From contig CAIQHF010000036.1 of assembly GCA_903871605.1 (NCBI GenBank), positions 1 through 64,000 of the forward strand: a stretch of 64,000 bases of DNA, read 5' to 3'. Below the pieces are notes generated by a model, which saw nothing but the letters and a program-made list of their open reading frames with translations, did no database searches and was not told where the DNA came from. Every line of letters begins with the position of its first letter. The first letter of the stretch is position 1. The translations under genes were made by a program, and so were the position numbers. This DNA comes from an uncultured Sphingomonadaceae bacterium (GTDB taxonomy: Bacteria > Pseudomonadota > Alphaproteobacteria > Sphingomonadales > Sphingomonadaceae). Below, piece by piece: positions 28,128 through 62,239 of the stretch.

Positions 28128-28167
28128 GATACGCATCTTCCAAAACCGCTGGTAGGCGTTGAACGGC

Positions 28168-45781: not shown

Positions 45782-46753
45782 TCACGCAGGCTCATTCGGA
45801 ACCGCGCCCGCGTCGGAAAACCATTTTCGGTCGAGCGGGAAGGCGAGATTAAGCTTTGCGGCTTTCGCAAGACGGAGCACGCGCTGGCGGTGAGACGGGT
45901 TTTGCGTGCGCCAGCGAGCGCCGGCGATGGCATCCCCGAACAGGCCTCGTGCGATTTGCTGATACCCGGCGCCGGCCAATAACGCATCGGCAACGCGGAG
46001 CTCGAGTATCCAGCGCTCGCGTCGGTTCGGGCGGCCGATCGACCTGTCGTCGAACCCGCCCTTCTCGACGACCTCGATCAAACGGCGAAGGGCCGCCACC
46101 GGGCCCTGCAAGGCGGCGATGCCGTGCAGACCGAACCGCAGCGACGCGGGATTTCCGATCAGGGTTCCGTCGACGATGTCGATCCGCAACGACTGGATTC
46201 CGTTGCTGAGCAGGAGATGCTCAATCTGCTTGTCATCGATCGCCACCGACACCAGGGGCATCAGGCGCCAGAGGTCGATGCGGTCGGCAGGGTGGGCGAA
46301 CGGATCGAGCACGACGGCGCGGATCACCGACGGATCGATATCCGCACGCCAAAGCGGGCGCGCAAGCGGTACGGACAATCCCGGGTCTTCGAAGCGCTCA
46401 AGGCCAAATTCTCTCGGTGGCTGTCGCGGCGACGCCATTCTGGTTCTGAATCGTCTCCAGGCGTCGCGATACGCCGGCGTGCGGCGGAGCCATTCCCAGG
46501 CGAAGGCGCTCCGGTCCGCATGGCGGAGCCCCTCATAATGATCGGCGCGGGTCCAGTTGAGTCCGGCGTTCCAACACGCCTCCGGAGCAAGGGCGCCGGG
46601 CTTGTTCACCACGACGCTCGAAGCGCCAAGTTCGGAGACGCGTATCCGGTGGCCGGAGGTGTGCGGCGCCGCGCCACAGTCTGATTCGAGGCCTGCCGGT
46701 TGCGTTTGGTTGAGTGACCAGAGCGGCAATATTTCGGAATAGGTGAAACGCAA
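45782..46753 (-). CDS. DUF2285-type protein
   Basis: A 323-residue protein that resembles DUF2285 / transcriptional-regulator-domain proteins found on integrative elements: an N-terminal YEGLRHADRSAFAWEWLRR motif (about 73-91) and a C-terminal region WILELRVADALLAGAGYQQ to PSHRQRVLRLAKAAK with a helix-turn-helix-like pattern. It reads leftward, away from the quorum-sensing genes, across an AT-rich spacer. Start uncertain, since the first 50 residues are poorly conserved-looking. Confidence 0.65.
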   Translation of the reverse strand: MRFTYSEILPLWSLNQTQPAGLESDCGAAPHTSGHRIRVSELGASSVVVNKPGALAPEACWNAGLNWTRADHYEGLRHADRSAFAWEWLRRTPAYRDAWRRFRTRMASPRQPPREFGLERFEDPGLSVPLARPLWRADIDPSVIRAVVLDPFAHPADRIDLWRLMPLVSVAIDDKQIEHLLLSNGIQSLRIDIVDGTLIGNPASLRFGLHGIAALQGPVAALRRLIEVVEKGGFDDRSIGRPNRRERWILELRVADALLAGAGYQQIARGLFGDAIAGARWRTQNPSHRQRVLRLAKAAKLNLAFPLDRKWFSDAGAVPNEPA

Positions 46754-47050
46754 TAATTACTCTCACTATGAGAGTTGATGCGCTCAATACGGGAAAAAAC
46801 ATGACTACTATCGATGCGTGATGGTGTCACACGCGTGTTAAAAGGCCCATTATGGCGGGAAATACCCATAATATTCGAGAAATATACTTGCAATTAATGA
46901 GATTTCGTTAAATCTCATTGCGATAAGATCGAGGGGCGGGGCTTGAGGGCCATGTTGATGTCATGCCGGCGCGGCGTGAGAACCGCGAAGCCGACATGAG
47001 CCTGTAGGCGCGGTCGACGAGCGGAACTGAAGCGCCGTTCGAAGCCCGTG
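46754..47050. promoter_or_regulatory. AT-rich intergenic region upstream of luxR
   Basis: About 300 bp clearly richer in A/T than the surroundings, between divergent genes. It holds the 24-bp perfect dyad at 46896-46919 and no gene. It is probably the promoter region of the luxR gene and marks the left edge of the quorum-sensing/lasso block. Confidence 0.5.
46896..46919. repeat. Perfect inverted repeat upstream of luxR
   Basis: AATGAGATTT-CGTT-AAATCTCATT has two perfect 10-base arms around a 4-base spacer, about 130 bp before the luxR start. The low GC of the stem and lack of a T-run argue against a terminator. It is a candidate regulator-binding site. Confidence 0.5.
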
Positions 47051-47800
47051 ATGGGCATCATGGCGTTTCTCAAGGACGCGCAGCAGCTTGCGCAAAGGAT
47101 CGTGTCGAGCACCAGCCGAAGTGCCTTGCGAGAGGCGCTCGAGGCAACGAGCAAGGCGATGGGCTTCCGTTTCTTCGCGGTGAGCTATCACCCGGGACGC
47201 GGCGGTCGAGGGCCGGTCAATCTTCGCGATCATAACTATCCCCACGAATGGGAGGAAAGCTATGATCGGCGACAGCTGGGGCTGTCCGACCCGATTCACC
47301 GGGTCAGCGACACGCGTGCCGAGGGATTTCGGTGGCGGGACGGTCCCACCTTCATTCCCTACACCGAACGCGATCTCGCCATGATCGATGAGGCGCGGCG
47401 TTTCGGCATCGACGACGGCTTCACGGTGCCGACAAACGTGCCCGGCGAGCGTCCCGGGTCGGTGACGTTCGTGACGGGCCATGGAGATCCTTTTCCCGAT
47501 GACATGCTCCTTTTCGCCGAAGCTCTCGGGCATCGCGCATTCCAGCGGATACACGAGATCGAGCGGCGACGGCCTTTCGCCAGCAGACCGATCGTGACCG
47601 ACCGTCACCTGGAGGTTATCGTCCTGATCGGGCGAGACAAGACAAACGGAGAGATGGGCGAGCTTCTTGGTATCAAGGAGGACACGGTCATGAAGCATGT
47701 GGCGGAAATCTGCGCGCGCTTCGGCGCCTTGCGCCGCACGTCCTTGCCGATGCGTGCCGTGCTCGAGGGGCTGCTGACTTTCTCCGACATTCTCCCGTGA
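47051..47800 (+). CDS. LuxR-family quorum-sensing regulator
   Basis: About 249 residues. The N-terminal autoinducer-binding domain has HEWEESYDRRQLGLSDPIHR, holding the conserved Trp, Tyr, Asp and Pro of the AHL pocket (TraR W57, Y61, D70, P71), then FRW and a Gly further on. The C-terminal HTH reads LLGIKEDTVMKHVAEICARF. The linked luxI gene makes it a likely cognate receptor. GTG 47048, ATG 47051 and ATG 47060 are possible starts, none with a strong RBS. Confidence 0.87.
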   Translation: MGIMAFLKDAQQLAQRIVSSTSRSALREALEATSKAMGFRFFAVSYHPGRGGRGPVNLRDHNYPHEWEESYDRRQLGLSDPIHRVSDTRAEGFRWRDGPTFIPYTERDLAMIDEARRFGIDDGFTVPTNVPGERPGSVTFVTGHGDPFPDDMLLFAEALGHRAFQRIHEIERRRPFASRPIVTDRHLEVIVLIGRDKTNGEMGELLGIKEDTVMKHVAEICARFGALRRTSLPMRAVLEGLLTFSDILP

Positions 47801-47801
47801 C

Positions 47802-47823
47802 GCCATTCCTTGTTCAAGGAATG
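47802..47823. promoter_or_regulatory. Candidate lux box upstream of luxI
   Basis: CCATTCCTTG-TT-CAAGGAATGG is a perfect 22-bp dyad ending 54 bp before the luxI start. Position and length resemble lux boxes bound by LuxR dimers. It could also fold as a 9-bp hairpin after the luxR stop, but no T-run follows. Confidence 0.5.
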
Positions 47824-47877
47824 GAGCAGTGTCGCGACCCGTGATCGATTGCCGTCTCCACATGAGGGAGATTGGCC

Positions 47878-48495
47878 GTGCTACTCAAGATCGACGCCCG
47901 TAACCGGATCGGCGAACATGTCGCGATGCGCGCTATGTTCGAAGCGCGCAAACGCGTGTTCATCGATCTGCTCAAATGGGACATTCCGGCACTTGATGGC
48001 CGGTTCGAGGTCGACCAGTTCGACGGCGGAGACGCGGTCTATCTCATTCTGATGGACCCGGAGTGCCGCCATCTCGCATCGGCCCGCCTCTTGCCGACAA
48101 CACGACCCGGCATCCTCAATTCGCTCTATCAGGAGTTGTGCGAGGATGGCGCACCGGCCGGTGACAGAATCTTCGAGATCACCCGTTTCTGCCTGTCGCC
48201 CGACCTCCGAGCCGCCGATCGCAAGGTGTGTCGCGACACCTTGGTCACCGCCCTTGCGCAATTCGCACTCGATGAGGGGATCGAGACCTATACCGGCGTC
48301 GCAGAATTGCCCTGGCTGCGTCAGATCCTTTCTTTCGGTTGGGATTGCGCGCTGCTCGGCAGGCCGCTCGCGGTCGGCAAGACGACGCTCGGCGCTCTGC
48401 GGATCGACATCCGCGAAGATACGATCGCCGCTCTCGAACGCGCAGGCATATGGCCCGCCGAAGGGCCATTCATCCCCGCCCGGCGCGCCGCTTGA
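47878..48495 (+). CDS. Acyl-homoserine-lactone synthase (LuxI family)
   Basis: A 205-residue AHL synthase. All invariant LuxI residues are visible: Arg24 and Phe28 in ARKRVF, Trp34, the two Asp in FEVDQFD (46 and 49), Arg in SARLLPT, Glu and Arg in FEITRF. With GTG 47878 the numbering of R24, F28 and W34 agrees with LuxI, and GAGGGAGA lies just upstream, so this start is preferred over TTG 47872. It makes AHL from SAM and acyl-ACP. The acyl chain length cannot be read. Confidence 0.93.
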   Translation: MLLKIDARNRIGEHVAMRAMFEARKRVFIDLLKWDIPALDGRFEVDQFDGGDAVYLILMDPECRHLASARLLPTTRPGILNSLYQELCEDGAPAGDRIFEITRFCLSPDLRAADRKVCRDTLVTALAQFALDEGIETYTGVAELPWLRQILSFGWDCALLGRPLAVGKTTLGALRIDIREDTIAALERAGIWPAEGPFIPARRAA

Positions 48496-48509
48496 AGGAG
48501 CTTGTCACC

Positions 48510-49436
48510 ATGAACGCTCCCATTTCGACATGCGATATCGATGCCCGGCGTGTCGCGACGTCAGCTTTTCACCTGGAAACCGAAGGCTGCTGCATCCTGC
48601 CAAGGCTTGTCGCACCTTCGACCGTCGCCAGGATCGACGCCGAGCTTGCGGCCGACTTCGCGGCTACGCCCATGTGCGACGGCGATTTCTACGGTGAGAG
48701 AACCAAACGTTTCGGACGTGTCCTGGCCAGATCGCAAACCGCGGCCAGCCTTGCGCTCCAGCCGCTGATCCTGGCGCTCGCGCGACGGATCCTCGAGCCT
48801 TGGTGCGATTGCATCCAGCTCAATGTTGCCCAGGCGATAGAAATCCATCCGCAAGCCCTCGCGCAATTTCCGCACCGTGATCAGGACATGTGGTGGGGCG
48901 ACAAGGGCAAGATCGAGTATCTCGTCAACGTGATCTGGCCGCTGACGCCCTTTACGCAGGAGAATGGTGCCACATTGCTTTGGCCAGATACGCATGGTCT
49001 TGGCGCGCTCGCCGAACATGACGGCGCGCCGCCGATCGCCGCCGAATGCGATCCCGGGGACGCGATCGTCTTTCTCGGGTCAACGCTGCATGGTGCCGGC
49101 GCCAACGTCACGCCGTGTCCAAGGAGGGGCATTGTCATCGGCTATAGCCTTGGCTGGCTCAAACCCTATGAAAATCCGTGGCTTGCTTATCCACCCGAGG
49201 TCGCGCGGAGCTTTCCACCCGAACTTGCCGCTCTGGCCGGCTATCGCCAGCATCGCCCCAACCTTGGCAATTTCGAAGGCCAATGTCCCTCCGTGGTTCT
49301 CGAAGGCCGGGCAACCGATCGCTTGCGCGCGATAGATGCGCTCCTCCCCGAGCAAGCTGCCGCGCTCGCCGATCATACCGAGGCCCAGCGGCGCGTTCGG
49401 GGCGCGGTACAGCTTAAGAAGATCGGCACGAGATGA
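48510..49436 (+). CDS. Phytanoyl-CoA dioxygenase (PhyH) family Fe(II)/2-oxoglutarate oxygenase
   Basis: A 308-residue non-haem iron oxygenase. FPHRDQDMWW provides His122 and Asp124, STLHGAGANV provides His194, and Arg206 in RRGIVIGY would hold 2-oxoglutarate, completing the 2-His-1-carboxylate site. It starts 14 bp after luxI with AAGGAG upstream and overlaps the GntR gene by 4 bp, so it is part of the luxI unit. PhyH genes beside luxI have been noted in sphingomonads. Here it also leads into a lasso operon, so it could hydroxylate the AHL, its acyl precursor or the lasso peptide. Confidence 0.88.
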   Translation: MNAPISTCDIDARRVATSAFHLETEGCCILPRLVAPSTVARIDAELAADFAATPMCDGDFYGERTKRFGRVLARSQTAASLALQPLILALARRILEPWCDCIQLNVAQAIEIHPQALAQFPHRDQDMWWGDKGKIEYLVNVIWPLTPFTQENGATLLWPDTHGLGALAEHDGAPPIAAECDPGDAIVFLGSTLHGAGANVTPCPRRGIVIGYSLGWLKPYENPWLAYPPEVARSFPPELAALAGYRQHRPNLGNFEGQCPSVVLEGRATDRLRAIDALLPEQAAALADHTEAQRRVRGAVQLKKIGTR

Positions 49437-50050
49437 GCCCCGGCAACACGATGGTGCGCGTCTACGGCACGCTCAAAGCACGCATCATGGCAGGCGAGTA
49501 TCTGCCCGGCGAACGCCTTGATCCTGGACGGCTGGCGACGGGGCTCGCCGCCAGCCGCACGCCGGTTCGGGACGCCTTGCTGCAACTCAGCGGTGAGCGG
49601 CTTGTCGACAGCTGGGAACAAGAGGGTTTTCGGGTGCCGCTCGTCAATGAGGCCGCTATTCGCGACATGTACGAATGGTCGAACGATGTCATCCATGCCG
49701 CGATCCGAGCCGCCTCGCGGAAACCGGGTCCGAGCCATCGCCCCGGGGACCTGCCCGACCTCGATTATGCCGGCGCCGTCGGCACCTGCTTCCTCGACAT
49801 CGCGGACTATTCGTCAAATCGTGAGCATCGGGCGGCGGTGAGCAATCTCGTCGATCGAAGCGCCGCCGTCCGGAGGGCGGAATCGATTATCGTCGAGGCG
49901 GCGATGGACGACGTTGAGGCGATCCAGCATTCCATCGCAAGCTTTGAATGGGCTGCGGCCGCGCGTGCCGTTGATCAATTCCACCGTCGCCGGATCCGGC
50001 TGGTCGCCGAGATTGCCGCCGCGCTCCGGTCCCGCGAGCCGCGCGCATGA
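49433..50050 (+). CDS. GntR-family transcriptional regulator
   Basis: A 205-residue GntR regulator: YGTLKARIMAGEYLPGERLD, then ASRTPVRDALLQLSGERLV with a wing, and a C-terminal helical FCD-like domain (EAIQHSIASFEWAAAARAVD). ATG overlaps the PhyH stop. It lies immediately upstream of the lasso precursor, so it may couple or repress the lasso operon. FCD ligands are usually small acids. The metal-binding His pattern is not obvious. Confidence 0.87.
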   Translation: MSPGNTMVRVYGTLKARIMAGEYLPGERLDPGRLATGLAASRTPVRDALLQLSGERLVDSWEQEGFRVPLVNEAAIRDMYEWSNDVIHAAIRAASRKPGPSHRPGDLPDLDYAGAVGTCFLDIADYSSNREHRAAVSNLVDRSAAVRRAESIIVEAAMDDVEAIQHSIASFEWAAAARAVDQFHRRRIRLVAEIAAALRSREPRA

Positions 50051-50153
50051 ATGCGTATATTCGGCAAATACCGGCCGTATAAAATTCCCATACCTGATCG
50101 CCAGCCTAGCTTGATCTCGCCATCCAATTCCGGACGGCAGAAGGAGAATGGTC
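50051..50153 (+). promoter_or_regulatory. Leader region of the lasso precursor gene
   Basis: 103 bp between the GntR stop and the precursor start. It includes TATAAA at 50078-50083 as a possible -10 box and an AAGGAGAA ribosome-binding site at 50141. The region is AT-rich compared with its flanks. No clear -35 match, so the promoter is tentative. Confidence 0.35.
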
Positions 50154-50285
50154 ATGAACATCGATCAGGACACGCTCGACGTCGTCGAGCTCGGCGTTGC
50201 CAGCGAGGAAACCCAGGGTTCGATCATCGGCGGCGCGGAAGCGGGCGGCCTCCACAAAGGCGTTGGGCTTTCCGACGACGACTGA
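50154..50285 (+). CDS. Lasso peptide precursor (LasA-type)
   Basis: A 43-residue precursor too short for standard ORF calling. The leader MNIDQDTLDVVELGVASEET ends in the proteobacterial pattern L-G-x-A-S-x-E-T-x with Thr20 at position -2. The core starts at Gly22 (GSIIGGAEA...) and ends GLSDDD, 22 residues. Glu at core position 8 gives a Gly1-Glu8 macrolactam, and Leu12, His13 and Lys14 are candidate steric plugs. Strong RBS seven bases upstream. The adjacent B and C genes make the call firm. The product is new to me. Confidence 0.85.
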   Translation: MNIDQDTLDVVELGVASEETQGSIIGGAEAGGLHKGVGLSDDD

Positions 50286-50290
50286 AAACG

Positions 50291-50320
50291 AGCGCGCGGG
50301 CGGTTGCCCGTCCGCGCGCT
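50291..50320 (+). terminator. GC-rich stem-loop between precursor and lasB
   Basis: A 13-bp, nearly perfect stem (one G-T pair) with loop TTGC: arm AGCGCGCGGGCGG pairs with CCGTCCGCGCGCT. It follows the precursor stop by 5 bp and ends 17 bp before the lasB start, with a TTTG after it. Such hairpins after a lasso precursor may attenuate or protect the mRNA so that precursor exceeds enzymes. Confidence 0.5.
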
Positions 50321-50337
50321 TTGCTTGGGCTACAGCG

Positions 50338-50976
50338 ATGCTTGCTCCCCATATCCACGCCGCGACATTCGGCGACCGCGTCGTGCTGCTCGACGTAGAG
50401 GCCGACCGTTACCGCCTGATCAGCGGTGATGCTGCGCGTGTGGTCGTCGCCGAGCTGGAGAGACATCAAATATCCGACACGATCATGACGGCAGCATTAT
50501 TCAAGGCCGGAATATTCGTGGCAGAGCCGACCGGACCTGCGCACGCGAGGCGACCAATGCCGGCGATACCTGCAGGGCGCTTACCTGATCGCGTGCCGTC
50601 GAAGCGGGCTATCCTTCCGACCTTGCGCGCACTCCTGTCAGCCCGTTTTCGATTGCGACGCTGGGGGCTGGCGAGAACGCTTGCCCAGGCCTCCGCGAGG
50701 GCTCCGGCCACCCGATCCGTCGATGTCGACATCGCGGCAATCACGGTCGCCGCGGTCTTTGCCCGTGCGCGTGTCCTCATTCCGCTGTCGCGGGCCTGTC
50801 TTCCCGACTCGCTTGCGCTATTCGAACTGCTCAAGCGTGCCGGATCTCGAGCCACGTTGGTTATCGGCGTACGTCTCGACCCGTTCCTGGCGCATTGTTG
50901 GGTACAGACGGATCAGTTCATCCTGAACGATGACCCGGATTCTGTTCTCGCCTACACGCCGATCCTGGCCTTATGA
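50338..50976 (+). CDS. Lasso peptide maturase B (fused RRE and transglutaminase-like protease)
   Basis: A 212-residue fused B1-B2 protein. Residues 1-60 form the RRE-like domain that binds the leader (VVLLDVEADRYRLISGDAAR). Residues 90-210 form the protease with Cys154 in SRACLPDSLALFELLKRAG, His186 in LAHCWVQ and Asp198 or Asp199 in NDDPD, the McjB-type triad. It should cleave after Gln21. ATG 50338 gives a standard McjB length. The open frame upstream to 50197 overlaps the precursor in another frame and is not coding. Confidence 0.88.
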   Translation: MLAPHIHAATFGDRVVLLDVEADRYRLISGDAARVVVAELERHQISDTIMTAALFKAGIFVAEPTGPAHARRPMPAIPAGRLPDRVPSKRAILPTLRALLSARFRLRRWGLARTLAQASARAPATRSVDVDIAAITVAAVFARARVLIPLSRACLPDSLALFELLKRAGSRATLVIGVRLDPFLAHCWVQTDQFILNDDPDSVLAYTPILAL

Positions 50977-52721
50977 GACCTCGTTTTATCGCGTCGATCG
51001 GAGGCGAGCCGTTCGGCATGCCGAAGCGATTGTCCGATCTCGGTCTGCACGCACGGGACCGGACCAACCTCATCTCGCTCTTTACCGACGAAGCGACTCC
51101 GCTGGTTTCGCTCGATCACATTGGCGGCTGGCTCGTTGGTCGCCTATTTCGTCGAAGCGACAACGCGCCCGTTCACCATCTCGACCATAGCGAGCAGGCG
51201 CTGATTGCCGGAACGGACGGCCAGCACCTGGTCGATCATTTCTGGGGAAGCTATGCCGCGCTCTGGTGTTCGGCCGATGGGGCATGCCGCGTTCTCCGCG
51301 ATCCTTCCGCGACGATGCCCGTCTATGTCGTCACCGTGCCGACCCCGACGGTGGCGTCGAATCTCGATCTCCTGATCGCCGCCGACGCCGTGCGGCTGAA
51401 GGTCGACTGGGCGACGCTCAGCCATGGTCTGCGATTTCCGTTACTGCCTACCGCGCGGACCTGCATCGACGGATTGACGGAGGTACTGCCAGGCGAAGTC
51501 TCGACACTGGCAGATATAGCGGACACCCGGTTGCTATGGCATCCGGCTTCGTTTCTGCAGCCGTCGGACAGCCCATGCGTACCGGACGCGCTCTGCGTGA
51601 AACTTGCCGGAGTGATTGACGGCGTCGTCTCGGCATGGAGCCACTGCTTCTCGGGGGCGCTGCTCGAATTGTCCGGTGGCCTTGATTCTTCGGTACTCGC
51701 GGCTTCCCTTGCCCGGTCGGGCACCAAATGGAGTGCCGCCACCGTGGCCACCCTCAGTCTCGAGGGTGACGAGCGGCGTTATGCGGCGCTGGTCGCGGAC
51801 CATTGCGGTGTTCCGCTGGCAGAATATGATCTCGGTCCGACCGCCATCCATCCGCTTGAGCCGTCCGAGCGGCTCGCGGTTCGCCCGACCGGTGTCCGCG
51901 TTCTCCAGGGGCTCGATCGCATTTTCAGGAAGGCTCGGCACGATACGCTGTCCGACGTCTCGTTCAGCGGCACGGGCGGCGACAATATCTTCGCCTACCT
52001 GCGTTCGACGGCGCCCGTGCTCGACGCTTTCGCGGCTGGCGGCGTCACGCTTGCCCTGGGCGCCTTCACCAACCTCATCCAGTTCTCGGCGGTGACAGCC
52101 TGGGAAGCAGCGGCGTCGCTTGGACGTCGCTGGTGGCGTGAGCGACATGCGACGTCACCTTGGCTCGCAAACGATCTGCTGCTCACCCGCGATGCGCTCG
52201 CGCCGTGTCGAAATCACCCGTGGCTCGAGGCGCCACAGCGGATGGCATCCGGCCAGCGCGCCCATATCCGTTCATTGATCGGAGCCCATCCGATCATCTC
52301 CGGTCATCCTCGTGCCACCTTGTCCACCATGGTCTTCCCGCTCCTCAGTCAGCCGGTGATGGAGGCCTGTCTCGCCATCCCTTCCTGGCAATGGGTGGCA
52401 GGGGGCCAGGATCGCGAACCGGTTCGTCGCGCCTTCGCTCGGCGTCTGCCCGGACCCGTGCTTGCAAGACGACACAAGGGGCATCTCGCCAGCGTGGTCA
52501 CAATGGCCTTCGAACGTGATCGCGGCCGAATCCGCAAACTCTTGCTCGACGGTCGACTGGTCAGCGCCGGGCTCGTCGAAGCCCGAGCGATCACACACGC
52601 CTTTGCGGCGTCAAATTCGATCGATGCGCTATTGCAGAACCGTCTCCTCGATCTGGCCGATGCGGAGCTATGGGTGCGCGAGATCGAGGGACTTCGCACC
52701 GCGCCAGCGCTCGGCCAATGA
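50973..52721 (+). CDS. Lasso cyclase C (asparagine-synthetase-like)
   Basis: A 582-residue ATP-dependent macrolactam synthetase. The N-terminal part resembles the glutaminase-like domain without its catalytic Cys. The PP-loop LELSGGLDSSVLA (residues 232-244) binds ATP, and SFSGTGGDNIFAY and FPLLSQPVMEACLAIPSW are typical synthetase-C landmarks. It would adenylate Glu8 of the core and close the ring. It overlaps lasB by 4 bp and the convergent isopeptidase gene by 54 bp. Confidence 0.9.
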   Translation: MRPRFIASIGGEPFGMPKRLSDLGLHARDRTNLISLFTDEATPLVSLDHIGGWLVGRLFRRSDNAPVHHLDHSEQALIAGTDGQHLVDHFWGSYAALWCSADGACRVLRDPSATMPVYVVTVPTPTVASNLDLLIAADAVRLKVDWATLSHGLRFPLLPTARTCIDGLTEVLPGEVSTLADIADTRLLWHPASFLQPSDSPCVPDALCVKLAGVIDGVVSAWSHCFSGALLELSGGLDSSVLAASLARSGTKWSAATVATLSLEGDERRYAALVADHCGVPLAEYDLGPTAIHPLEPSERLAVRPTGVRVLQGLDRIFRKARHDTLSDVSFSGTGGDNIFAYLRSTAPVLDAFAAGGVTLALGAFTNLIQFSAVTAWEAAASLGRRWWRERHATSPWLANDLLLTRDALAPCRNHPWLEAPQRMASGQRAHIRSLIGAHPIISGHPRATLSTMVFPLLSQPVMEACLAIPSWQWVAGGQDREPVRRAFARRLPGPVLARRHKGHLASVVTMAFERDRGRIRKLLLDGRLVSAGLVEARAITHAFAASNSIDALLQNRLLDLADAELWVREIEGLRTAPALGQ

Positions 52722-54623
52722 GATCCAGCGGTGATATTGGTCCTCATTGCGGCGTGCGGGCGGAACGCCGCCGTGAAGCCAGAAGCGAAACCAGTCGAGA
52801 TTGCGCTGATAAGCGGACGCCTTGTGGCGGGGCAGCTGCTTCTGGTGAGCCTCGTGCCCATAGGCGACCATTTCGACGGGCGTCGTCGAGCGGCTGAGCT
52901 TCGTTAACAATTCCATCGACCAGCGCGCTTCCTGTTCCGGAACCTGCATCAGCAGCGGAACGTGGATCTGATTGGTGTTGAGTGCGGGCGATATGCGTCG
53001 CCAGCCGTCAGAATCCTTGTCCGGATCGCCCACACCCCAAGTCTGTCGCATCACCTCCGGCGTATCCCGACCACGAACCGCGTTGGTCCAGTAGAAGGCG
53101 GGTTCAAGCTGACCCGTCGAAATCGACGCGGCGGCGAGAAGATGCGTTCGCATTGCCATCATCATGACGATCTCGCTGCCGAAGCTCAGGCCCCACATGC
53201 CGATCCTCGACCGATCGATCAGTCCTTTGGCGGCAAGCTGATCGACGATCGTCTCGATCCCAGCGCGGGCCTGATCATAGGCCCACGCGGCATCGTGGCT
53301 GCCCGACGGATCATGCGCCTCATTGATACAGAGCGTCGCCACGCCGGCTTGGGCGAGTGGCAGAAACGGAAGCTCGTCGCCAAGGCCGCCCCGGAGAAAG
53401 CCCGTGCAATCATAATAATTGATGACGAGGGGAAAGCCGCTCGCTGGGGGTTTGCCCACCGGCGGGATCAACTGACCAGAAAACCGCGTGCCGAGGGTGC
53501 TGGTCCAGTCGATCCGTTGCGCTGAAGTCGTGATCGCGCGTCGCAACCTTGAATTGGGATCGAATACCGACATGACCCGACCGTTGCTAAGATCGACATG
53601 CACGAGGGCAGGAGGGCCTGAGGCTGTCGCCGCGACGCAAATGGCCTGCCTGTTGGCGACCGCGCACGGCGCGCTGGCGTCGCGACCGCCGCTCATGAGA
53701 CCCGCATTGTGCAGGACCTCACGAGAGCGCCCTGTATCCAGATCCCATAACGTCAGCCGCTGATAGCGGGCATTGTCCTGGGTGGTGACAAGGAGCTCAT
53801 GACCATTGCCCGTCGCGATCGCCGAGGCCTGCGCCTCATTCGCGCAGACGACGAGTGTGCAGGAGACCTTGCGTCCATCCGGCATTGTGATCCCGAGATG
53901 CGAGTGGCCGCCTTCATAGCTTTGCTCGACGGTCACGCGACGTTCGGCGCCGATCCGGATCGGAGCCAGGCCGATCGGCAGGCGCATCGTTCGCACCGGT
54001 GTTTGCCATAGCAGATTGCCATGATTGAACCACTGACCCGTGAGACGCTCGCTGGCGAGATGACCATCCACCCACGCGCCGCGCAGCAGCGGTTGCGTCA
54101 TGTCGACGGACGCATCGACAACAACGCCGTCGTCATCCGAACGCTGTTCGGCCTTGTCGAGTTCGGTGCGCGAAGCGCCGACCTGGTAGAGCAGTGCGCG
54201 ACCGTCGGGAGCCAGCGTGACCGTCTCGACATTGGCCGGATCGTGGCTCGCCTGGCGTGCTGCGCCGCGCACAGGATATTTCCAGATCTGAACGGCGGCG
54301 CCGCGGAGCGCGCGTGCGTAAAATGCCGTGGAGTCGGGCGCCCAGATCGGCACTTCGGTTTGCAGTTCGCCGGCGGCGTTGAACAATGCACCGCCGCCGT
54401 CTCCGACGCGTCTCGGTGCACTGCCCCCGTCGGTTGGCACGACGTACCAGCTGATCCGATCGCCGTTAGCTGCGATTGAAGGCCGCTCGGTCCGAAACGC
54501 GACCCAGCGTCCGTCGGGCGAGGCAGTGAGGCCGGATAAGTCGGTCACCTCGACGATGTCGCGAACCGTGAGCGCCGGTGTCGATGTCGCCGAGACGAGC
54601 GCGAGCAGGAGCGGCATCACCAT
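52668..54623 (-). CDS. Lasso peptide isopeptidase (S9-like alpha/beta hydrolase)
   Basis: A 651-residue exported hydrolase. After a signal segment (MPLLLALVSATSTPA) comes a seven-bladed propeller, then an alpha/beta-hydrolase domain with the nucleophile Ser480 in MWGLSFGSEIV, a candidate acidic residue in VPEQEARW (Glu instead of the usual Asp, as in AtxE2-type isopeptidases) and His in AYGHEAHQK. Isopeptidases of this type open the lasso ring of the cognate peptide. It follows the TonB receptor in one operon. Its C-terminus overlaps lasC. Confidence 0.82.
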   Translation of the reverse strand: MVMPLLLALVSATSTPALTVRDIVEVTDLSGLTASPDGRWVAFRTERPSIAANGDRISWYVVPTDGGSAPRRVGDGGGALFNAAGELQTEVPIWAPDSTAFYARALRGAAVQIWKYPVRGAARQASHDPANVETVTLAPDGRALLYQVGASRTELDKAEQRSDDDGVVVDASVDMTQPLLRGAWVDGHLASERLTGQWFNHGNLLWQTPVRTMRLPIGLAPIRIGAERRVTVEQSYEGGHSHLGITMPDGRKVSCTLVVCANEAQASAIATGNGHELLVTTQDNARYQRLTLWDLDTGRSREVLHNAGLMSGGRDASAPCAVANRQAICVAATASGPPALVHVDLSNGRVMSVFDPNSRLRRAITTSAQRIDWTSTLGTRFSGQLIPPVGKPPASGFPLVINYYDCTGFLRGGLGDELPFLPLAQAGVATLCINEAHDPSGSHDAAWAYDQARAGIETIVDQLAAKGLIDRSRIGMWGLSFGSEIVMMMAMRTHLLAAASISTGQLEPAFYWTNAVRGRDTPEVMRQTWGVGDPDKDSDGWRRISPALNTNQIHVPLLMQVPEQEARWSMELLTKLSRSTTPVEMVAYGHEAHQKQLPRHKASAYQRNLDWFRFWLHGGVPPARRNEDQYHRWISLAERWRGAKSLDLAHP

Positions 54624-57535
54624 GAGAAGGTCGCCTGAACGGCGATTTCACGCCCGATCGCATTGGCCTGGTCGGGGTCAAACGCCAGCGTCCACCCGAA
54701 GTAACTGTTGTAGACGTAAGGGGGCCGCCGGTTGAATAGATTGACGGCGCTGAGCCCTATGCGGGCTCCCTTGAGGGGGGACGGGCTGGCAAATGTATAG
54801 CCGATCTGCGCGTCAACCGTCGTCCAGCTCTTGACATGCTCCACCGGCAAAACCGAATTGTTCGCATAGCCGCCGACATAATTGGGCATCAGGCTGAGAT
54901 CGACGCCGTGGCCGCTCCAGCCGATATGGCCCCGCAAACGGAGCTTGACCGGGTGGTGAATAGTGCCAAGCACGTCGTCGACGGGCGCCGCGGAATCGAC
55001 CTTGTCGTTGAGTGCCAGCAGGCGGCTGCCGCTGATCCCCGCACTTGCCGTGCCGCCCAGTAACGGACGGGTTGCCTCGAGGTCGAAATCGACCCCACGT
55101 ACTTGTTCCTCGGCGAGATTATGCACCCGCACGTCGATGATTGCGCCGATCGCCGACGGCGCGATTGCAAATGGGTTGACGAAATTGTCCAGGCTGAAAA
55201 GCGACGCGACCGTGGCTGCGGAGGGATTCTCCTGGGTCAGCGACGCATAAACGTTCCGCTGGACAAGATAGGAGGCATAGTCGGTGCTCAGAAAGGTGAT
55301 GCGATTGCGGTAGTGGATGTCGAAATAGCTCGCCGTCAGCGTGACCCCCGGAAGCCAGGACGGTTTGAGATCTACGCCTGCCGTCCAGCTGCGCGATTTC
55401 TCCGGATCGATTTTTGCGGGATATCCGATCTGCGCGATGACCGCGGTCTGCCCCGTCGGCGATTGCGGATCCGGTATGGGGAGCGCCTCATAGGCATTGC
55501 CGAGCGTTCCCGGGTTTTCGGTAAAGCCCGGCGCCCGGAACGACGTGCCGAAGGATGACCGAAACGCCACGCCCATGACCGGCTCCCAGCGCAGACCGAC
55601 CTTCGGATTGATCGTGCGTCCGACGTCGCTGTACCAGTCGGCGCGCGCCGCCCCGGACAGATCGAGCCGACCGGGCAAATGATCGGTTGAAGGCCCGAAC
55701 ACCGGAACCGAGAGCTCGGCGTAGACCGCCTCGATGCTGCGATGGCCGGGCGTCCCCGCCGTCGGTTCGTGGATGAACGCGCCTGGTTCGCCGGAGTCCG
55801 CATCGCTGCGATAATCAGAGGAGAAGCGCTCGTCGCGATGTTCGTAGCCCGTCGCGAGACGTACGTCGCCCGCCGGCAGGGAAATGAGCGGGCCGTCCGC
55901 GCGTAAGCTCGCAGACCAGACTTGATAGCGATCCACCTCGCCGCGCGTTGCCCGGATAAAGGCAAGCGTCGTCGCACCGTTGGCTTGGCCGTCGCCGAAG
56001 ACGTTGAGCGCCGTCGAAGCATCGGTGTCGGCCAGCGCCGTCGCGATGCGCGCATCACTGGTCCCATTATGCTCGGTTTCACGTTGGACCTGATATCCGT
56101 AGGCGCCGCTCGCCTCGAGCGTCCACGGCCCACGATGCGCCCGAGCGCCGGCGCTTGTCGTCACGGCGTCAAGCGAGCCGGTGCTGTAGTAACGACCAAG
56201 CTCCGGCTGGAAATCATATTCCACGTCGACCGGCTGGTGCGTCCCGATCGGATCGACATAGAAGGGGTTGTTGGTCGGGACAGTGACGGGCGACTGAAGC
56301 TGGACGGGAAACACGCTCGAAAAAGACCGATGCGCATACAGCGCACGCCCGTAGAGACTGACCCCATCTCCGAGTTTCTGGTCGAACGCCGCATAAAGCG
56401 AGTGCGTTGTCTGTTCGGGCAGGAGATCAATCTCCTTTCGCCGATCCTGCAGATATTGGACGCCCGGCAGGAGACTGGCCGCCGATAGATTTCGACCGTT
56501 CTGACCCGCCGGGATGCCGTAGAGGCTTCCGTCCGCCGCGATGATCGTCGCAGGGAGAGTGTAAGGGGATCGGAGGTCCGGGCCGCCCCAAGGCCTCAAG
56601 TCCTCCGTCGAGACTGCCCGGTCTGCGCCCGGCAAGCTACTATGGTGGTCATATTGATAGGCGAGCATGACCCCGCCAGTGGACCAGCGCTTGCCGGCTG
56701 CCTGGGCAAGCTGCTTCTGCGCATAAGCGCCACCGGCGGCACCCGAATACACATGCGTCTCGAAGCCATCGAGATGGTCACGAAAGCGGATATTGACCAC
56801 ACCGGCGACGGCGTCCGTGCCGTAAATTGCCGACGCGCCATCGGTCAGGATCTCGATCCGGTCGATCGCGGTCGTGGGGATCAGCGACGTGTCTACAAAG
56901 GATCCGGTGCTGCCTCCGAGCGCCGGCCGGTTTCCGTCGAACAGCACGAGCGTCGAGGTTGTGCCCAGGCCTCGCAGATCGATGCTGCTGCCGTAATTCT
57001 GGTTGCCACCGGCGTTCGGATTGATGCCGTAATTGCCTTCATTCTGATCGCCGCCAAAATTTTGTGGAAGAGTTTGAAGATAGTCCGCAACGGTTGCGCG
57101 CCCGCTTTTCTCGATGGCGCCGCGGTCGATCGTGATCAGGGGCGAACCGATCGGTCCGGATCCTCGGATGCGGGTCCCCGTGACGACGATGTCGTCAGAC
57201 TGGCTGTGCTGCGCGACCGGGTACGGTCGATCCCGACGGACGACATAGGTACCAGCCACGAGGTCCGCATGAAGGCCGCTACCGTTGAGGAGATGGGCCA
57301 GGGCATCCTTCTCCGACATGGTTCCAGACACAGTCGCGCATTCCCGGCCCGCCACGAGTTCGGCCGATACGATGATGTGGCCGCCCGACTGCCGGGCGAA
57401 GACCTGCAGCGCGCTCCCCAGATCTTCGGCCGGGATGTTGTACTCATGGTCGGCCACCTGCGCGCTTGCGGTGCCGGCCGTCACCAACAATGTCAGCGTC
57501 ACGGCGCGAAGCCGTCTGTTGGTCGTCGATGTCAT
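54617..57535 (-). CDS. TonB-dependent receptor with STN signalling domain
   Basis: A 972-residue outer-membrane receptor. Signal peptide (VTLTLLVTAGTASAQ), STN domain (about 30-100, YNIPAEDLGSALQVFARQSG), plug with SDDIVVTGTRIRGS and LRGLGTTSTLVLFDGNRP, then the barrel ending IAVQATFSW. The STN domain talks to FecR, so substrate binding activates FecI. Next to the isopeptidase, its likely substrate is the lasso peptide itself (re-import and opening) or a siderophore. Overlaps the isopeptidase start by 7 bp. Confidence 0.92.
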   Translation of the reverse strand: MTSTTNRRLRAVTLTLLVTAGTASAQVADHEYNIPAEDLGSALQVFARQSGGHIIVSAELVAGRECATVSGTMSEKDALAHLLNGSGLHADLVAGTYVVRRDRPYPVAQHSQSDDIVVTGTRIRGSGPIGSPLITIDRGAIEKSGRATVADYLQTLPQNFGGDQNEGNYGINPNAGGNQNYGSSIDLRGLGTTSTLVLFDGNRPALGGSTGSFVDTSLIPTTAIDRIEILTDGASAIYGTDAVAGVVNIRFRDHLDGFETHVYSGAAGGAYAQKQLAQAAGKRWSTGGVMLAYQYDHHSSLPGADRAVSTEDLRPWGGPDLRSPYTLPATIIAADGSLYGIPAGQNGRNLSAASLLPGVQYLQDRRKEIDLLPEQTTHSLYAAFDQKLGDGVSLYGRALYAHRSFSSVFPVQLQSPVTVPTNNPFYVDPIGTHQPVDVEYDFQPELGRYYSTGSLDAVTTSAGARAHRGPWTLEASGAYGYQVQRETEHNGTSDARIATALADTDASTALNVFGDGQANGATTLAFIRATRGEVDRYQVWSASLRADGPLISLPAGDVRLATGYEHRDERFSSDYRSDADSGEPGAFIHEPTAGTPGHRSIEAVYAELSVPVFGPSTDHLPGRLDLSGAARADWYSDVGRTINPKVGLRWEPVMGVAFRSSFGTSFRAPGFTENPGTLGNAYEALPIPDPQSPTGQTAVIAQIGYPAKIDPEKSRSWTAGVDLKPSWLPGVTLTASYFDIHYRNRITFLSTDYASYLVQRNVYASLTQENPSAATVASLFSLDNFVNPFAIAPSAIGAIIDVRVHNLAEEQVRGVDFDLEATRPLLGGTASAGISGSRLLALNDKVDSAAPVDDVLGTIHHPVKLRLRGHIGWSGHGVDLSLMPNYVGGYANNSVLPVEHVKSWTTVDAQIGYTFASPSPLKGARIGLSAVNLFNRRPPYVYNSYFGWTLAFDPDQANAIGREIAVQATFSW

Positions 57536-57612
57536 TGCGGCCCCCTTGTCTGAGACCGGTGATCCGGTCCTCGGGGCCGCAAGGCGAAGGGCGGGACTAA
57601 TCCCCCCCGTTT

Positions 57613-58590
57613 TTATTTTCCGATTGGCGACCTCACGAGGGTGAATGCCCCGCCATCGTCGCGCAGCGCGAGATCGAGAGCCGCGGCGAGTTGCTGCGCC
57701 AGCCCACCTGTATTGGTAAGGTCGAAGCGACCCTGCACCAGGGCCGCGCCAAGACCGGCATCGCCCAGCCTGATCGGCTTGTGGCCCATTCGGTTGGCAT
57801 CCTCGATGACACGCGACAGCGGCGTCGGCGGATAGTCCGTCGCCGCCATGTTTGAAATGCCTGCGGGTACCGGTGTGACTGTCTCGGCCGCATGGGTCAC
57901 GATCAGTCTCTCCCCGCGCTTCAGGCGGACGGTCGCCTGCACCGCACCGGAATGTGGCGGGCGCGCAACCTCGACGATGCCTTCGATCATCGTCACTGAA
58001 AGGCCCGATGGCAGCAACGCCACGTCGAATATTGTCCCGCGTGCGGTGACGGTGCGGTCGCCCGCCGTGACCACGAAGGGGTGCGCGACATCATGCGCCA
58101 CGCTGAACCGCGCGCTTCCCTCCAACAGCGTGATGGCACGGATTTCGCCGTTGAAATGCGGCGCCACGACGCTGTTTGCGGCGAGCCGTACGATCGAACC
58201 GTCAATCAAACGAACGGCGCGGGGCTGCTCATAGCTGGCGATCGGCGCATCCTCCCGAACCGTCGGATGCTGCGCTCGTTCGAGCAGAATAGCCCCGCCG
58301 CCCGTCGCAATAAGGGCGATGAACGAGGCGAACGCAAGCCGGCGACCGGCGCCAACGCGAGCGACGACAGGCGGGGATGGCCGCATCCGTGACAGGTTCG
58401 GTGTTCGCGTCGCGCTGCCCGTCGCACTCCACAACGCTTGCGAGCGTTGGAAGGCCGCCTCATGGCGGGGGTCGGCCGCTCGCCATTGTTGTGCATCGGC
58501 GAAATGCCGATCGGCATCGGGGCCGTGCAGGCGTGCGACCCACATATCCGCCTCGCGAGCGACGTGCTCGCGACCCCACGCGAACGGCAT
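57613..58590 (-). CDS. FecR-family anti-sigma/transducer
   Basis: A 325-residue inner-membrane transducer: N-terminal DUF4880-like domain (EADMWVARLHGPDADRHFAD), TM (FASFIALIATGGGAILL), then the FecR domain (VRLIDGSIVRLAANSVV, VVTAGDRTVTARGTIFDVAL). It passes the receptor signal to FecI and holds it inactive without ligand. ATG 58590 overlaps the sigma stop as TGATG. Confidence 0.9.
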   Translation of the reverse strand: MPFAWGREHVAREADMWVARLHGPDADRHFADAQQWRAADPRHEAAFQRSQALWSATGSATRTPNLSRMRPSPPVVARVGAGRRLAFASFIALIATGGGAILLERAQHPTVREDAPIASYEQPRAVRLIDGSIVRLAANSVVAPHFNGEIRAITLLEGSARFSVAHDVAHPFVVTAGDRTVTARGTIFDVALLPSGLSVTMIEGIVEVARPPHSGAVQATVRLKRGERLIVTHAAETVTPVPAGISNMAATDYPPTPLSRVIEDANRMGHKPIRLGDAGLGAALVQGRFDLTNTGGLAQQLAAALDLALRDDGGAFTLVRSPIGK

Positions 58591-59126
58591 CAGCGCCGGT
58601 CCAGTTGCCGTCGCAGCGCACTCAGCGCTTTCGCGATCTGTTTCTCGATGCCCTTCACGCTCATGCCTTTGACCGTTGCGATCTCGGCATAGCTGAGGCC
58701 GTCGAGCCGGTGGAGCATGAATATCTCGCGGGTCTTGGGCTTGAGCCGCAACATGGCCGCATCGATACGCGCGACGTTGTCGCGTGATTCCAGATGGTGA
58801 TGCGGATCTGGTCCGGCGATCGCCTCTTCGTCCAACACCACATGGGCCGCCCGTTGTGCCGGTTTTCGCGCTTGATCCCTCACGAGATTATCGGCGACGC
58901 GATGGAGATAGGCTTCGGGGTTCTCAAGCCGCAAATGGTTCTGCGCCGCCGTGCCGAGCAGCCGCCGGAACGTTTCTTGAACGAAATCGGCGACATCCTG
59001 TGGGGCTACGCGTCGCGAGAAGAAGCGCGTCAGCCTCGGGCTCAACTCGCGGTACAGCGCATCGACATCGGTACGCTCCGCATAGCCAGCCCAATCTTCT
59101 GGAGGCAGGGGGTCGTCCAGCGTCAC
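58590..59126 (-). CDS. FecI-type ECF sigma factor
   Basis: A 178-residue sigma factor: QDVADFVQETFRRLLGTA (region 2), LKPKTREIFMLHRLDGLSYA then MSVKGIEKQIAKALSALR (region 4). It heads the leftward fecI-fecR-TonB receptor-isopeptidase unit. No Fur-box was identified by eye upstream. Confidence 0.91.
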   Translation of the reverse strand: MTLDDPLPPEDWAGYAERTDVDALYRELSPRLTRFFSRRVAPQDVADFVQETFRRLLGTAAQNHLRLENPEAYLHRVADNLVRDQARKPAQRAAHVVLDEEAIAGPDPHHHLESRDNVARIDAAMLRLKPKTREIFMLHRLDGLSYAEIATVKGMSVKGIEKQIAKALSALRRQLDRR

Positions 59127-59928: not shown

Positions 59929-60540
59929 GCCCCCGCCCGCGCCTTGATCGAGAGCGTCCTCGCTCTCACCGTCGGCGCCCCAGAATGAGCGCACAACGGG
60001 AAAATAACTAATCTAGATTGATATGGTTGCACCAATTGGAACTGCTGATCGCGTTCCATCTCTGTCCGGATCGCGACAATGAAGCTGGGGTAGCCACCGT
60101 CTGACGCCCGAGAGACGGCCGCTGCGACGCGGAGATAACCCGGCGCCGCGGCAGCTTGCGCGTATGATCAGCTCGTCGACTCCCGTCACCAGAAGCTCTG
60201 GAATCTGAGGGCCGAGCCCGGCTAGGGGAAGGCCTTCCCCTGCCGCCGAGCCCTTCGGTCTCGCCGGACCCCTTCTACGGGGCTTCGCCCCGTAACGCCC
60301 CTTTGCGGTCGCCGCTCGCGCGGCGGCGTTGTCGGTGCCTTCCCGGCAAGCGCGGGTGGTCGACGCTCCCTGCTAGGCCCATGGCCGGCGGCGGCAAGCC
60401 GTGCTGCGCCCGGCTGCTTCATTCCATTACGCCCCTTACGGGTGCCGTCCCCGTCCAGTGTGGGCCTCTCCGTTCGCTTGCCGCCCACCCCCGCTTTCCG
60501 GGGAAGGCTTGTGGGTTTTTGGGCGGGATGGAGACAGGCC
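59929..60540. other. Hairpin-rich leader region upstream of ardC
   Basis: About 600 bp without a gene but with strong short palindromes: AGGGGAAGGCCTTCCCCT (60224-60241) and ACGGGGC-TTC-GCCCCGT (60277-60293), and two GTAACGCCCCTT / TTACGCCCCTTA-like repeats at about 60292 and 60429. Such structured regions precede antirestriction genes in plasmid leading regions and may act as single-stranded promoters or oriT-linked elements, but no nick site is recognised. Confidence 0.45.
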
Positions 60541-61473
60541 ATGCGTTCCACCAGCAGCACCAGCGCGCGCGTCGGACGGGGAAAGACGGGAGGAGGCGCG
60601 GCGCGATCCGCTGCCGCAGCGCCCGGCGCGCGCGAGCCTCGCGCGTCGCTTTATGATGACGTGACAAACCGGATCATCGCCGAACTGGAGGCGGGCCGGA
60701 TGCCGTGGGTCCAGCCTTGGGGGCGTGTCGAGGGCGGAGCGGTTCCCGGCCTGCCGCGCAATGCGCTGACCGGGCGCACCTATTCGGGCGTCAACGTCCT
60801 GATCCTGTGGGGTTCGGTAATCGCCCGAGCCTACCCTTCCCAAAGCTGGCTTACGTTCAAACAGGCATTGGAGGCGGGCGGGTGCGTCCGCAACGGTGAG
60901 CAGGGGACGACCGTCGTCTATGCCGATCGCTTCATTCCCAAGGGCGAAGCCGAGAAAGCTTCACAATCCGGTGATGATCCGAAAGCGGTGCCGTTCCTCA
61001 AGCGGTTCACCGTGTTCAACGTCGCGCAATGCGACGGCCTGCGCGATGGCCTCGCCGCCGATCCAGCACCCTTGCCCGATCGCGAGATCGTGCCCGTCGC
61101 CGAGGAGCTGATCGCGGCCAGCGGCGCCGATTTCCGCATCGGCGGCGCCAAGGCTTATTATGTCCCGTCCGCCGATTTCATACAGGTGCCGCCGCAACCG
61201 GCCTTCTTCGAGCAGATCAATTATTACCGGACGGCGCTGCACGAACTGACGCATTGGGTCGGGGGTAAGACGCGTCTCGCCCGCGACCAGTCGGGCGCGT
61301 TCGGCACGCAAGCCTATGCCCGCGAGGAACTCGTCGCGGAAATGGGCTCGGCCTTTTTGTGCGCAGCATTGGGCATCGTGCCGACCGTCCGTCACGCCGA
61401 TTATCTCGGGTCTTGGCTGCAGTTATGCCCAGCTCGGCATAACTTTAGTAATCACGAGCAGCTGATAATGTGA
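60541..61473 (+). pseudogene. ardC: ArdC-like antirestriction protein, 5' part (interrupted)
   Basis: ATG 60541 opens a 310-codon frame. The N-terminal ssDNA-binding domain (SLYDDVTNRIIAELEAGRMP, then NALTGRTYSGVNVLILW) is followed by the zincin-like domain with TALHELTHWVGGKTRL (H-E-x-x-H at about 233-237) and REELVAEMGSAFLCAALG. The family sequence stops at about 61419 (YLGSWL) and resumes at 62238, so the gene is interrupted by an inserted element. The C-terminal codons to 61473 come from that element. Confidence 0.85.
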
Positions 61474-61480
61474 AGGAACG
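61447..61480 (+). repeat. Left 34-bp inverted repeat
   Basis: Begins AGTAATCACGAGCAGCTGAT and ends GTGAAGGAACG. Its reverse complement matches 62206-62239 except at three positions. Confidence 0.8.
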
Positions 61481-62155: not shown

Positions 62156-62205
62156 ATAATGAGAAGGACGCTCGCTACAACACGGTGAAAACCGTGCACC
62201 GGCGG

Positions 62206-62239
62206 CGTTCCTTCACATTATCGGCTACTCGCGATTACT
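62206..62239 (+). repeat. Right 34-bp inverted repeat
   Basis: Begins CGTTCCTTCACATTATCGGC and ends GCGATTACT. It is the partner of 61447-61480 and ends at the point where ardC sequence resumes. Confidence 0.8.

Follow-up and report, generated by a model that had tools for sequence, protein, structure and literature searches.

An isopeptidase-type lasso peptide cluster with a built-in quorum-sensing module in the Sphingomonadaceae

Genes of the lux-lasso unit

The unit described here lies in a stretch of 64,000 nucleotides from an uncultured Sphingomonadaceae bacterium (bases 1-64000 of a 451,798-base contig, G000:C36), referred to below as the window. Its plus strand carries luxR, luxI, phyH, gntR and the lasso peptide genes A, B and C between 47060 and 52721, and its minus strand carries, from 59126 down to 52668, fecI, fecR, a gene for a TonB-dependent receptor and a lasso isopeptidase gene, convergent with the first set. 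The whole amounts to a lasso cluster of the isopeptidase type into which a quorum-sensing module is built, and our comparisons confirm that the linkage is real and widespread in the family. The starts and stops read from the sequence give gaps of 77 bp (luxR-luxI), 14 bp (luxI-phyH), -4 bp (phyH-gntR), 103 bp (gntR-A), 52 bp (A-B) and -4 bp (B-C), which exactly reproduces the gene order, directions and all six gaps of an initial annotation of this DNA. That annotation had also reported no dedicated ABC exporter, and indeed none is seen among the coding-biased open reading frames (ORFs) from 46754 to 59126, which are the listed genes and two small antisense ORFs inside phyH; this search was confined to the cluster and did not extend to the rest of the genome.

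The quorum-sensing genes begin with luxR (47060..47800; ORF open from 47048), which encodes a receptor and regulator for acyl-homoserine lactones (AHLs) with an Autoind_bind match of 89 bits. The protein aligns with RhlR over almost its full length, and its GerE domain scores 21.8 bits, just below the Pfam cut-off of 23.5. A second, divergent luxR-type gene stands beside the luxR of the unit in six related loci (L066, L067, L070, L071, L076 and L081). The AHL synthase gene luxI (47878..48495, GTG start; Autoind_synth 76.6 bits) encodes a protein whose catalytic half aligns with solved AHL synthases, the catalytic residues being conserved. It is followed by phyH (48510..49436; PhyH 82.6 bits), which encodes an Fe(II)/2-oxoglutarate dioxygenase of the luxI-phyH kind. 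Residues H122, D124, H194 and R205 of PhyH are invariant across 21 aligned sequences, and the closest relatives of known structure (AndA with 109 bits, PrhA and AusE) are dioxygenases named for small molecules; a single-sequence fold of PhyH was uninformative (pLDDT 33). The next gene, gntR (49433..50050; GntR 53.2 bits), encodes a regulator that is of the FadR/VanR type (FCD) both by sequence and by a model with a pLDDT of 90.4, for which the matches in the PDB were TM0439, McbR and VanR.

The lasso precursor gene A (50154..50285; alternative start 50148) reads MNIDQDTLDVVELGVASEETQ followed by the predicted core GSIIGGAEAGGLHKGVGLSDDD. It has the Thr at -2 and the Gly1 of lasso precursors, and Glu8 lies within the range of positions 7-9 where Asp or Glu is looked for, giving a predicted ring Gly1-Glu8. 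The core holds no Cys and one His and ends in Asp-Asp-Asp. Two or three tandem, differing precursor genes before a single B-C pair were seen in 20 of 92 loci with a precursor (for example, L164 and L181), often in Sphingopyxis. A hairpin with 13-bp arms that are 92% complementary (50291..50320) separates A from B (50338..50976), the leader peptidase gene with a B2 domain (NF033537, lasso_biosyn_B2, 79.9 bits; cut-off 33). Lasso C (50973..52721), for the macrolactam cyclase of the asparagine-synthetase type, matches PF00733 (Asn_synthase) with 92.8 bits, and the lasso-specific NF033535 gives 28.1 bits, below its cut-off of 525.

On the minus strand, the isopeptidase gene (52668..54623), which overlaps lasso C by 54 bp, belongs to the AtxE2 family (NF033523, 532 bits; cut-off 400). 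In an alignment it has Ser, Glu and His at the positions of the AtxE2 triad, the Ser column being identified because the AtxE2 entries 5txe and 5txc differ at that Ser. The TonB-dependent receptor (54617..57535; Plug 59.4 and barrel 112.2 bits) has a possible N-terminal signalling (STN) domain, as a FecA-type transducing receptor would (21.6 bits, under the cut-off of 28.4). The anti-sigma factor gene fecR (57613..58590; PF04773, 58.5 bits) and the extracytoplasmic function (ECF) sigma factor gene fecI (58590..59126; Sigma70_r4_2 55.9 and r2 34.5 bits) both score above their cut-offs. The sequence marks of an isopeptidase-type cluster are present, namely a lasso-type precursor, a B2 peptidase, an asparagine-synthetase-type cyclase, an AtxE2-family isopeptidase, gntR before A, and TonB receptor, FecR and FecI genes beside the isopeptidase.

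Recurrence and history of the linkage

Of the 397 family genomes searched, 179 have lasso B2 and 122 have LuxI. Linkage was counted among 150 listed matches of each out of a larger number, so the counts are lower bounds. At least 38 of the 150 listed B2 places, in 34 genomes, have one of the listed LuxI no more than 20 kb away, compared with about 1.0 expected under uniform placement. The arrangement of the window, with LuxI 2.4-3.0 kb upstream of B2 and both on one strand, accounts for 20 of these 38. Stretches of up to 20 kb around the linked pairs were mapped using the proteins of the window. The linkage was also approached from PhyH, for which an alignment scan of 84,980 one-per-species genomes gave 401 relatives. 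Among the best 80 of the 401, which were mapped, 59 are accompanied by lasso B or C and 4 by the isopeptidase/receptor side only (together 63), and luxI is beside phyH in 79, the remaining one ending at a contig edge. In the same 80, lasso or receptor genes are linked to 62 of the 72 phyH loci with gntR versus 1 of the 8 without it (Fisher p 4e-5). The gene-order comparison proposed in the initial annotation therefore shows strong and recurrent co-occurrence of luxI/phyH and lasso genes in relatives.

Loci in which the two halves were not paired were also inspected. Among 20 places chosen from the listed LuxI without a listed B2 partner within 20 kb, 5 have lasso B and/or C (L205, L206, L207, L218 and L222), L213 has the receptor side only, L208, L216 and L220 are ambiguous, and the region taken for L209 did not contain its LuxI. 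The phyH gene is present in 17 of 19 LuxI loci of one set and in 21 of 30 of another, with or without lasso genes, and some of the loci without phyH in the latter set end at contig edges. Of 20 lasso places chosen away from luxI, L192 and L201 had no lasso gene by profiles and were dropped; phyH stands beside gntR in none of the remaining 18, and 14 of them have a gntR match. Since phyH goes mostly with luxI and lux-less lasso clusters mostly have gntR with no adjoining phyH, the unit is best read as a quorum module and a lasso module joined at phyH-gntR. Genome G201 (L185/L228) departs from this: next to the fecI of such a lasso cluster it has a whole phyH (L228:4681-5601, 410 bits), and luxI was not matched anywhere in that stretch. 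This phyH may be a relic of the second layout described below, or else phyH may be able to work for the lasso side. Among 385 class-wide genomes, PhyH matches above 400 bits were found only in the genome of the window and in G400, which has luxI-phyH; lasso B, lasso C and the isopeptidase were not found in the 19.5 kb taken from it.

The genome of the window carries a second complete and diverged unit (G000:C22:146600-166525, L075) with the core GSVGLPQETAGLQPIGLSDAD and a LuxI that is 65% identical to that of the window. The genome has no more than two genes each for LuxI, AHL-binding LuxR, B2 and an isopeptidase over the cut-off, and all of them lie inside these two units.

The linked loci occur in two layouts. 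Form 1 is that of the window, with luxR-luxI-phyH-gntR-A-B-C convergent with isopeptidase-TonB-FecR-FecI; in form 2, it is the receptor arm that the luxR-luxI-phyH-gntR cassette precedes or adjoins. In 66 of 67 form-1 loci, phyH is flanked by luxI and gntR. The stop-to-stop medians over 66 loci are 698, 908 and 613 bp, with 10-90% ranges of 684-709, 887-937 and 599-634 bp and single outliers. In a LuxI tree of 117 distinct sequences out of 146, a set enriched for linked loci, 106 of 108 phyH- or lasso-linked LuxI, including that of the window, fall into one clade (98/96), and the other two (L094 and L101) fall outside it with the nine that lack phyH. Form 2 belongs mostly to one LuxI clade (13 of 15, within a group of 18 rows; 99/95), and seven phyH-only loci, most of them luxR-luxR-luxI, form a separate clade (100/98). 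In the 70 linked loci where all eight genes were found, cyclase distances correlate with those of LuxI (0.65), the isopeptidase (0.65) and the receptor (0.68), and none of 999 permutations came close, which fits inheritance as a unit. A chance neighbourhood is rejected by the 38 of 150 linked places, the 63 of 80 PhyH neighbourhoods and these correlated distances.

Some cores of the linked set resemble known peptides. The core GIEPVGPRDEDTNQHYLFVGGITTDD of the form-2 units L132 and L134 resembles sphingopyxin I, and a structurally known peptide type may therefore belong to a quorum-linked unit. The core GPPGDRIEFGVLAQLPGLDRD of the form-1 unit L078 closely resembles subterisin. The precursor of Sphingomonas paeninsulae is labelled "benenodin family" in a RefSeq-based table. 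The sphingocin of Sphingomonas BPH was ruled out as a member of the linked set, its core not being among the precursors of the loci; Sphingopyxis bauzanensis DSM 22271 (L156) carries the unit with cores other than the BPH sphingocin. Sphingopyxis terrae NBRC 15098 (L177) is another strain that carries the unit.

Putative control sites and flanking genes

A perfect dyad with 10-bp arms lies 53 bp before luxI (47803..47824), a candidate lux box. In relatives, a conserved dyad, roughly TATCCCCATTTCTTGGTATGGC, is found between the luxR stop and luxI in 56 of 68 non-redundant gaps. The dyad of the window matches this box in position and is off-consensus in sequence, scoring 14.6 bits against the matrix of the relatives, for which the limit is 15. 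A site of at least 15 bits directly precedes luxI in 107 of 116 lux loci, a count that is circular because the matrix was trained on the same luxI gaps, so that only the scarcity of sites elsewhere is independent. Outside the luxI gaps, the 2.29 Mb scanned contain 16 sites, compared with 5 in the shuffled control; one of the 16 (L095) in fact precedes a luxI missed in the gene map, and those of note, in L079 (32.5 bits) and L083-L086 (17.4 bits), are about 300 bp away from fecI. Box distances track those of the LuxR helix-turn-helix (partial r 0.43, 0 of 499 permutations, n = 51) and not those of the GntR helix-turn-helix (partial r 0.00, n = 51), which speaks for LuxR as the protein that reads the box. 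The dyad conserved before luxI is the likely lux box. Another perfect dyad, AT rich with 10-bp arms and a 4-bp spacer (46896..46919), lies between luxR and the divergent gene next to it. Part of the relatives have other AT-rich dyads before luxR, and comparing them led to no role.

No lux-type box before lasso A was supported in the matrix scan of the 2.29 Mb of loci. Instead, A is preceded by a conserved element of its own, GGCCGTATAAAATTCCCATACCTG (50073..50096, plus strand), presumed to be a promoter or operator. It occurs with at least 13 bits about 80-100 bp before the A start in 90 of 92 loci with a precursor, in both layouts, its matrix having been trained on 59 of these 92, and 67 sites are found elsewhere in the same sequence versus 35 in shuffles. 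GntR is the obvious candidate for a protein that reads this element. A weak promoter and terminator scan gave 1 promoter-like site (3.0 in shuffles) and 5 terminator-like sites (8.5 in shuffles), one of them inside luxI and none on the plus strand from the luxI stop to A, so read-through into A-B-C could occur. Simple read-through is nevertheless not a given, since A has its own conserved element and lacks a lux box, and control of A-B-C would pass through read-through, GntR or both.

Several further genes flank the unit. Divergent from luxR on the minus strand is a gene for a DUF2285/RovC-type regulator (45782..46753; Trans_reg_dom 38.2 and RovC_DNA-bd 30.9 bits in Pfam), a family with relatives that control the excision of a mobile element in Mesorhizobium. 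DUF2285 relatives occur in 48 other loci. Leaving aside loci with less than 3.3 kb of sequence before luxI, a divergent DUF2285 gene lies within 3.3 kb of luxI in 20 of 42 form-1 loci and in 8 of 9 loci whose stretch has luxI-phyH-gntR and no lasso genes, and in 0 of 13 form-2, 0 of 3 receptor-only and 1 of 8 phyH-only loci. On the other side, the plus strand carries genes for an ArdC-type antirestriction/zincin protein (60442..61473; ArdcN 134.5 and MPTase-PolyVal 149 bits) and a tyrosine recombinase (61481..62155; Phage_integrase 96.5 bits), and the flank from 60442 to 64000 also holds a ParB-like plasmid partition gene (39 bits, far below the cut-off). A zincin-like gene follows the sigma factor gene in L224. 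VirB4 matches were found on both unit-bearing contigs (C36:103567 and C22:111410), about 50 kb from the units; a plasmid test on the same genome did not find the PF10134 replication protein, so the units may sit on a plasmid or an integrative element alike.

Units also occur on annotated plasmids, with form 1 in S. paeninsulae, where DUF2285 and zincin genes flank it as in the window, and form 2 in Blastomonas and Sphingopyxis indica. A Rhizorhabdus plasmid carries luxR-luxI-phyH without lasso genes, before virB conjugation genes. Outside the family, plasmid phyH matches were found in Variovorax, Hydrogenophaga and Methylocystis. Of the 38 plasmids with a phyH relative, 31 were typed as conjugative. 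Elsewhere in the window, and unrelated to the unit, are a DUF1800 gene with an exported-looking neighbour (25549-28343; the DUF1800 match was checked in Pfam) and a large efflux-pump-like gene (12532-15831).

Interpretation and relation to known systems

We propose that two known modules have been joined into one regulatory unit at the 4-bp overlap of phyH and gntR. The luxR-luxI-phyH module would make and sense an AHL, LuxR with the signal would bind the dyad before luxI and switch on luxI-phyH-gntR, and PhyH would modify the AHL. Transcription would continue into A-B-C by read-through and/or by GntR acting on the element before A, and the second module, gntR-A-B-C facing fecI-fecR-TonB-isopeptidase, would produce the lasso peptide. 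By analogy with what is known of the family, the peptide would be exported, reimported via the outer membrane receptor and opened by the isopeptidase, its return being reported by FecR/FecI. Because the modules are joined as one unit, we consider it probable that the lasso peptide is made, or the receptor arm primed, at high cell density. The initial annotation had proposed production at high density, and this is partly borne out: the gene order, the spacing and the lux-box-like dyad before luxI are kept in relatives, whereas no box precedes A, which has its own element.

Several observations weigh against this proposal. Expression of the unit, its AHL and its peptide product are predicted from the genes. 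For 112 of the 150 listed B2 places, there is no listed LuxI within 20 kb, which indicates that such a lasso cluster does not need quorum genes, and in the genus of the window, both luxI and B2 are found in 1 of 10 sampled genomes. With its own element and no box before it, A-B-C could be under weak quorum control or none. The element itself reaches 15 bits in only 6 of the 18 lux-less lasso clusters, and its distances are unspecific, following the GntR helix-turn-helix (partial r 0.21) about as closely as they follow the LuxR ligand domain (0.25) and LuxI (0.18). The box before luxI, circular in its training, does not reach 15 bits in 9 of 116 lux loci, among which are the window and its sister unit L075 (-5.3 bits). 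Common ancestry of the genomes may account for the correlated distances. Finally, the lasso cluster of G201 that keeps phyH without a luxI match is an exception to the split into two modules, and for this reason we hold the proposal slightly less firmly, and a role of PhyH on the lasso side slightly more so, than we otherwise would.

Two mobile cargo modules might simply have come to lie side by side, the quorum genes serving conjugation or plasmid control and the lasso genes controlling themselves. The virB genes behind luxR-luxI-phyH in Rhizorhabdus, the preponderance of conjugative plasmids among those with phyH, the distant VirB4 matches, the ArdC, DUF2285, recombinase and ParB-like genes in the flanks and the separate element before A would all suit such neighbours. 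We nevertheless regard this as unlikely, as it does not account for the tight joint, with phyH and gntR overlapping in the window and steady stop-to-stop spacing over 66 loci, for the association of lasso linkage with gntR among the mapped phyH loci, or for the same four genes being kept together in two different layouts. Very unlikely, in our judgment, is that PhyH is a tailoring enzyme that hydroxylates the lasso peptide, with the lux genes timing that step. Its near-constant place between luxI and gntR in form 1 and the whole phyH beside fecI in the lux-less cluster of L228 could be read that way, and 2-oxoglutarate oxygenases are known to modify peptides. However, phyH is never beside gntR in the 18 lux-less lasso clusters, its best solved relatives are named for small molecules, and it follows luxI where the stretch holds no lasso genes, as is known from PMC3704786. 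An action on the AHL also fits better with Novosphingobium Rr2-17, in which overexpression of its own luxI gave five 3-hydroxy AHLs (PMC11674143), though luxI by itself may explain these.

A further idea, compatible with control by cell density, is that the peptide is a siderophore-like scavenger of a metal or hydrophobic cargo and that quorum sensing holds back release, which is costly, until there are many cells to share the peptide. The TonB/FecR/FecI arm and the isopeptidase, for which a role in cargo release has been proposed (PMC9266682, PMC11006600), speak for it, as does the loss of phenanthrene use upon disruption of lasso B2 in Sphingomonas BPH (PMC11006600). In the parts of these two papers available, however, no cargo is demonstrated, and that on BPH mentions neither luxI nor luxR there. 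Against it stand also the absence of the BPH core from the precursors of our loci and the make-up of the core of the window, without Cys and with one His and a terminal Asp-Asp-Asp. We see the scavenger as rather doubtful, if somewhat easier to accept than a mere neighbourhood. Returning to the joined regulatory unit, a broader and still tentative conjecture, to which we give a little more room than to the scavenger, is that AHL quorum sensing in sphingomonads largely serves as a dedicated controller of isopeptidase-type lasso peptides. In such a two-signal relay, a diffusible, PhyH-modified AHL would license a second signal, a ribosomal one, and FecR/FecI would count the return of this second signal via its own receptor and isopeptidase; luxR-luxI-phyH would be a portable switch placed before varied cargo (lasso genes in two layouts and conjugation genes).

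The biological function of isopeptidase-type lasso peptides is left open in PMC9266682, and the output of sphingomonad luxI-phyH systems is not stated in the available parts of PMC3704786 and PMC4288048. The linkage could let these two questions answer each other, as it predicts that these quorum systems have the lasso peptide as a main cargo under their control and that peptides of this type are products of group behaviour. Its recurrence in many related bacteria makes the purpose of the peptides testable, and if the prediction is true, silent lasso clusters might be switched on simply by adding the right AHL.

The two halves of the unit are each in line with earlier descriptions, as the initial annotation had stated. 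A gntR gene before the precursor gene and a TonB receptor with a sigma/anti-sigma pair are almost constant in isopeptidase clusters (PMC9266682), and the adjacency of luxI and phyH is known in sphingomonads (PMC3704786, PMC4288048). The annotation's further statement that no described cluster joins both holds in that we found no description of the joined lux-lasso unit in a search of 5.39 million open papers, which left out most subscription papers and all bioRxiv preprints. It has to be qualified by an antiSMASH "lassopeptide-homoserine lactone" hybrid listed for Sphingomonas sp. So64.6b, with lasso and AHL synthase genes in one region (PMC9716278). In the parts of that paper available, the hybrid is an uninterpreted software call, without gene order, regulation or conservation of the lux genes. 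An Erythrobacter strain has both lasso and AHL cluster types, which the available parts of the paper do not say are joined (PMC9723273).

A lasso cluster indirectly linked to AHL levels is that of capistruin under ScmR in Burkholderia, which, unlike the unit of the window, has an ABC transporter, no lux genes in the parts of the description available and a proposed repression in stationary phase (PMC6963729). As for the missing exporter gene, the cluster of subterisin also lacks an ABC transporter, and yet the peptide was detected in the culture supernatant, which means that release does not in every case need a dedicated exporter (PMC11006600). Among the quorum-sensing loci, novR-novI-phyH and the luxR-luxR-luxI-phyH-virB "topology T" of sphingomonads share genes, order, direction and LuxI clade with the window (PMC3704786, PMC4288048), and the Rhizorhabdus luxI-phyH before virB agrees with "topology T" (PMC4288048). 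The available text of PMC4288048 mentions neither lasso, gntR nor asparagine, and that of PMC3704786 does not mention lasso, the only term searched there; in the window, by contrast, phyH is followed by gntR and the lasso cluster. With the isopeptidase-type clusters of the astexins (AtxE2), sphingopyxin I, benenodin-1 and subterisin, the window has in common gntR-A-B-C, isopeptidase-TonB-FecR-FecI and no ABC exporter, and to these it adds luxR-luxI-phyH joined to gntR and a lux-box-like dyad, with the divergent DUF2285 gene that is found in about half of the form-1 loci. What appears to be new is the joining of a quorum module to an isopeptidase-type lasso cluster, each half of which was known already.

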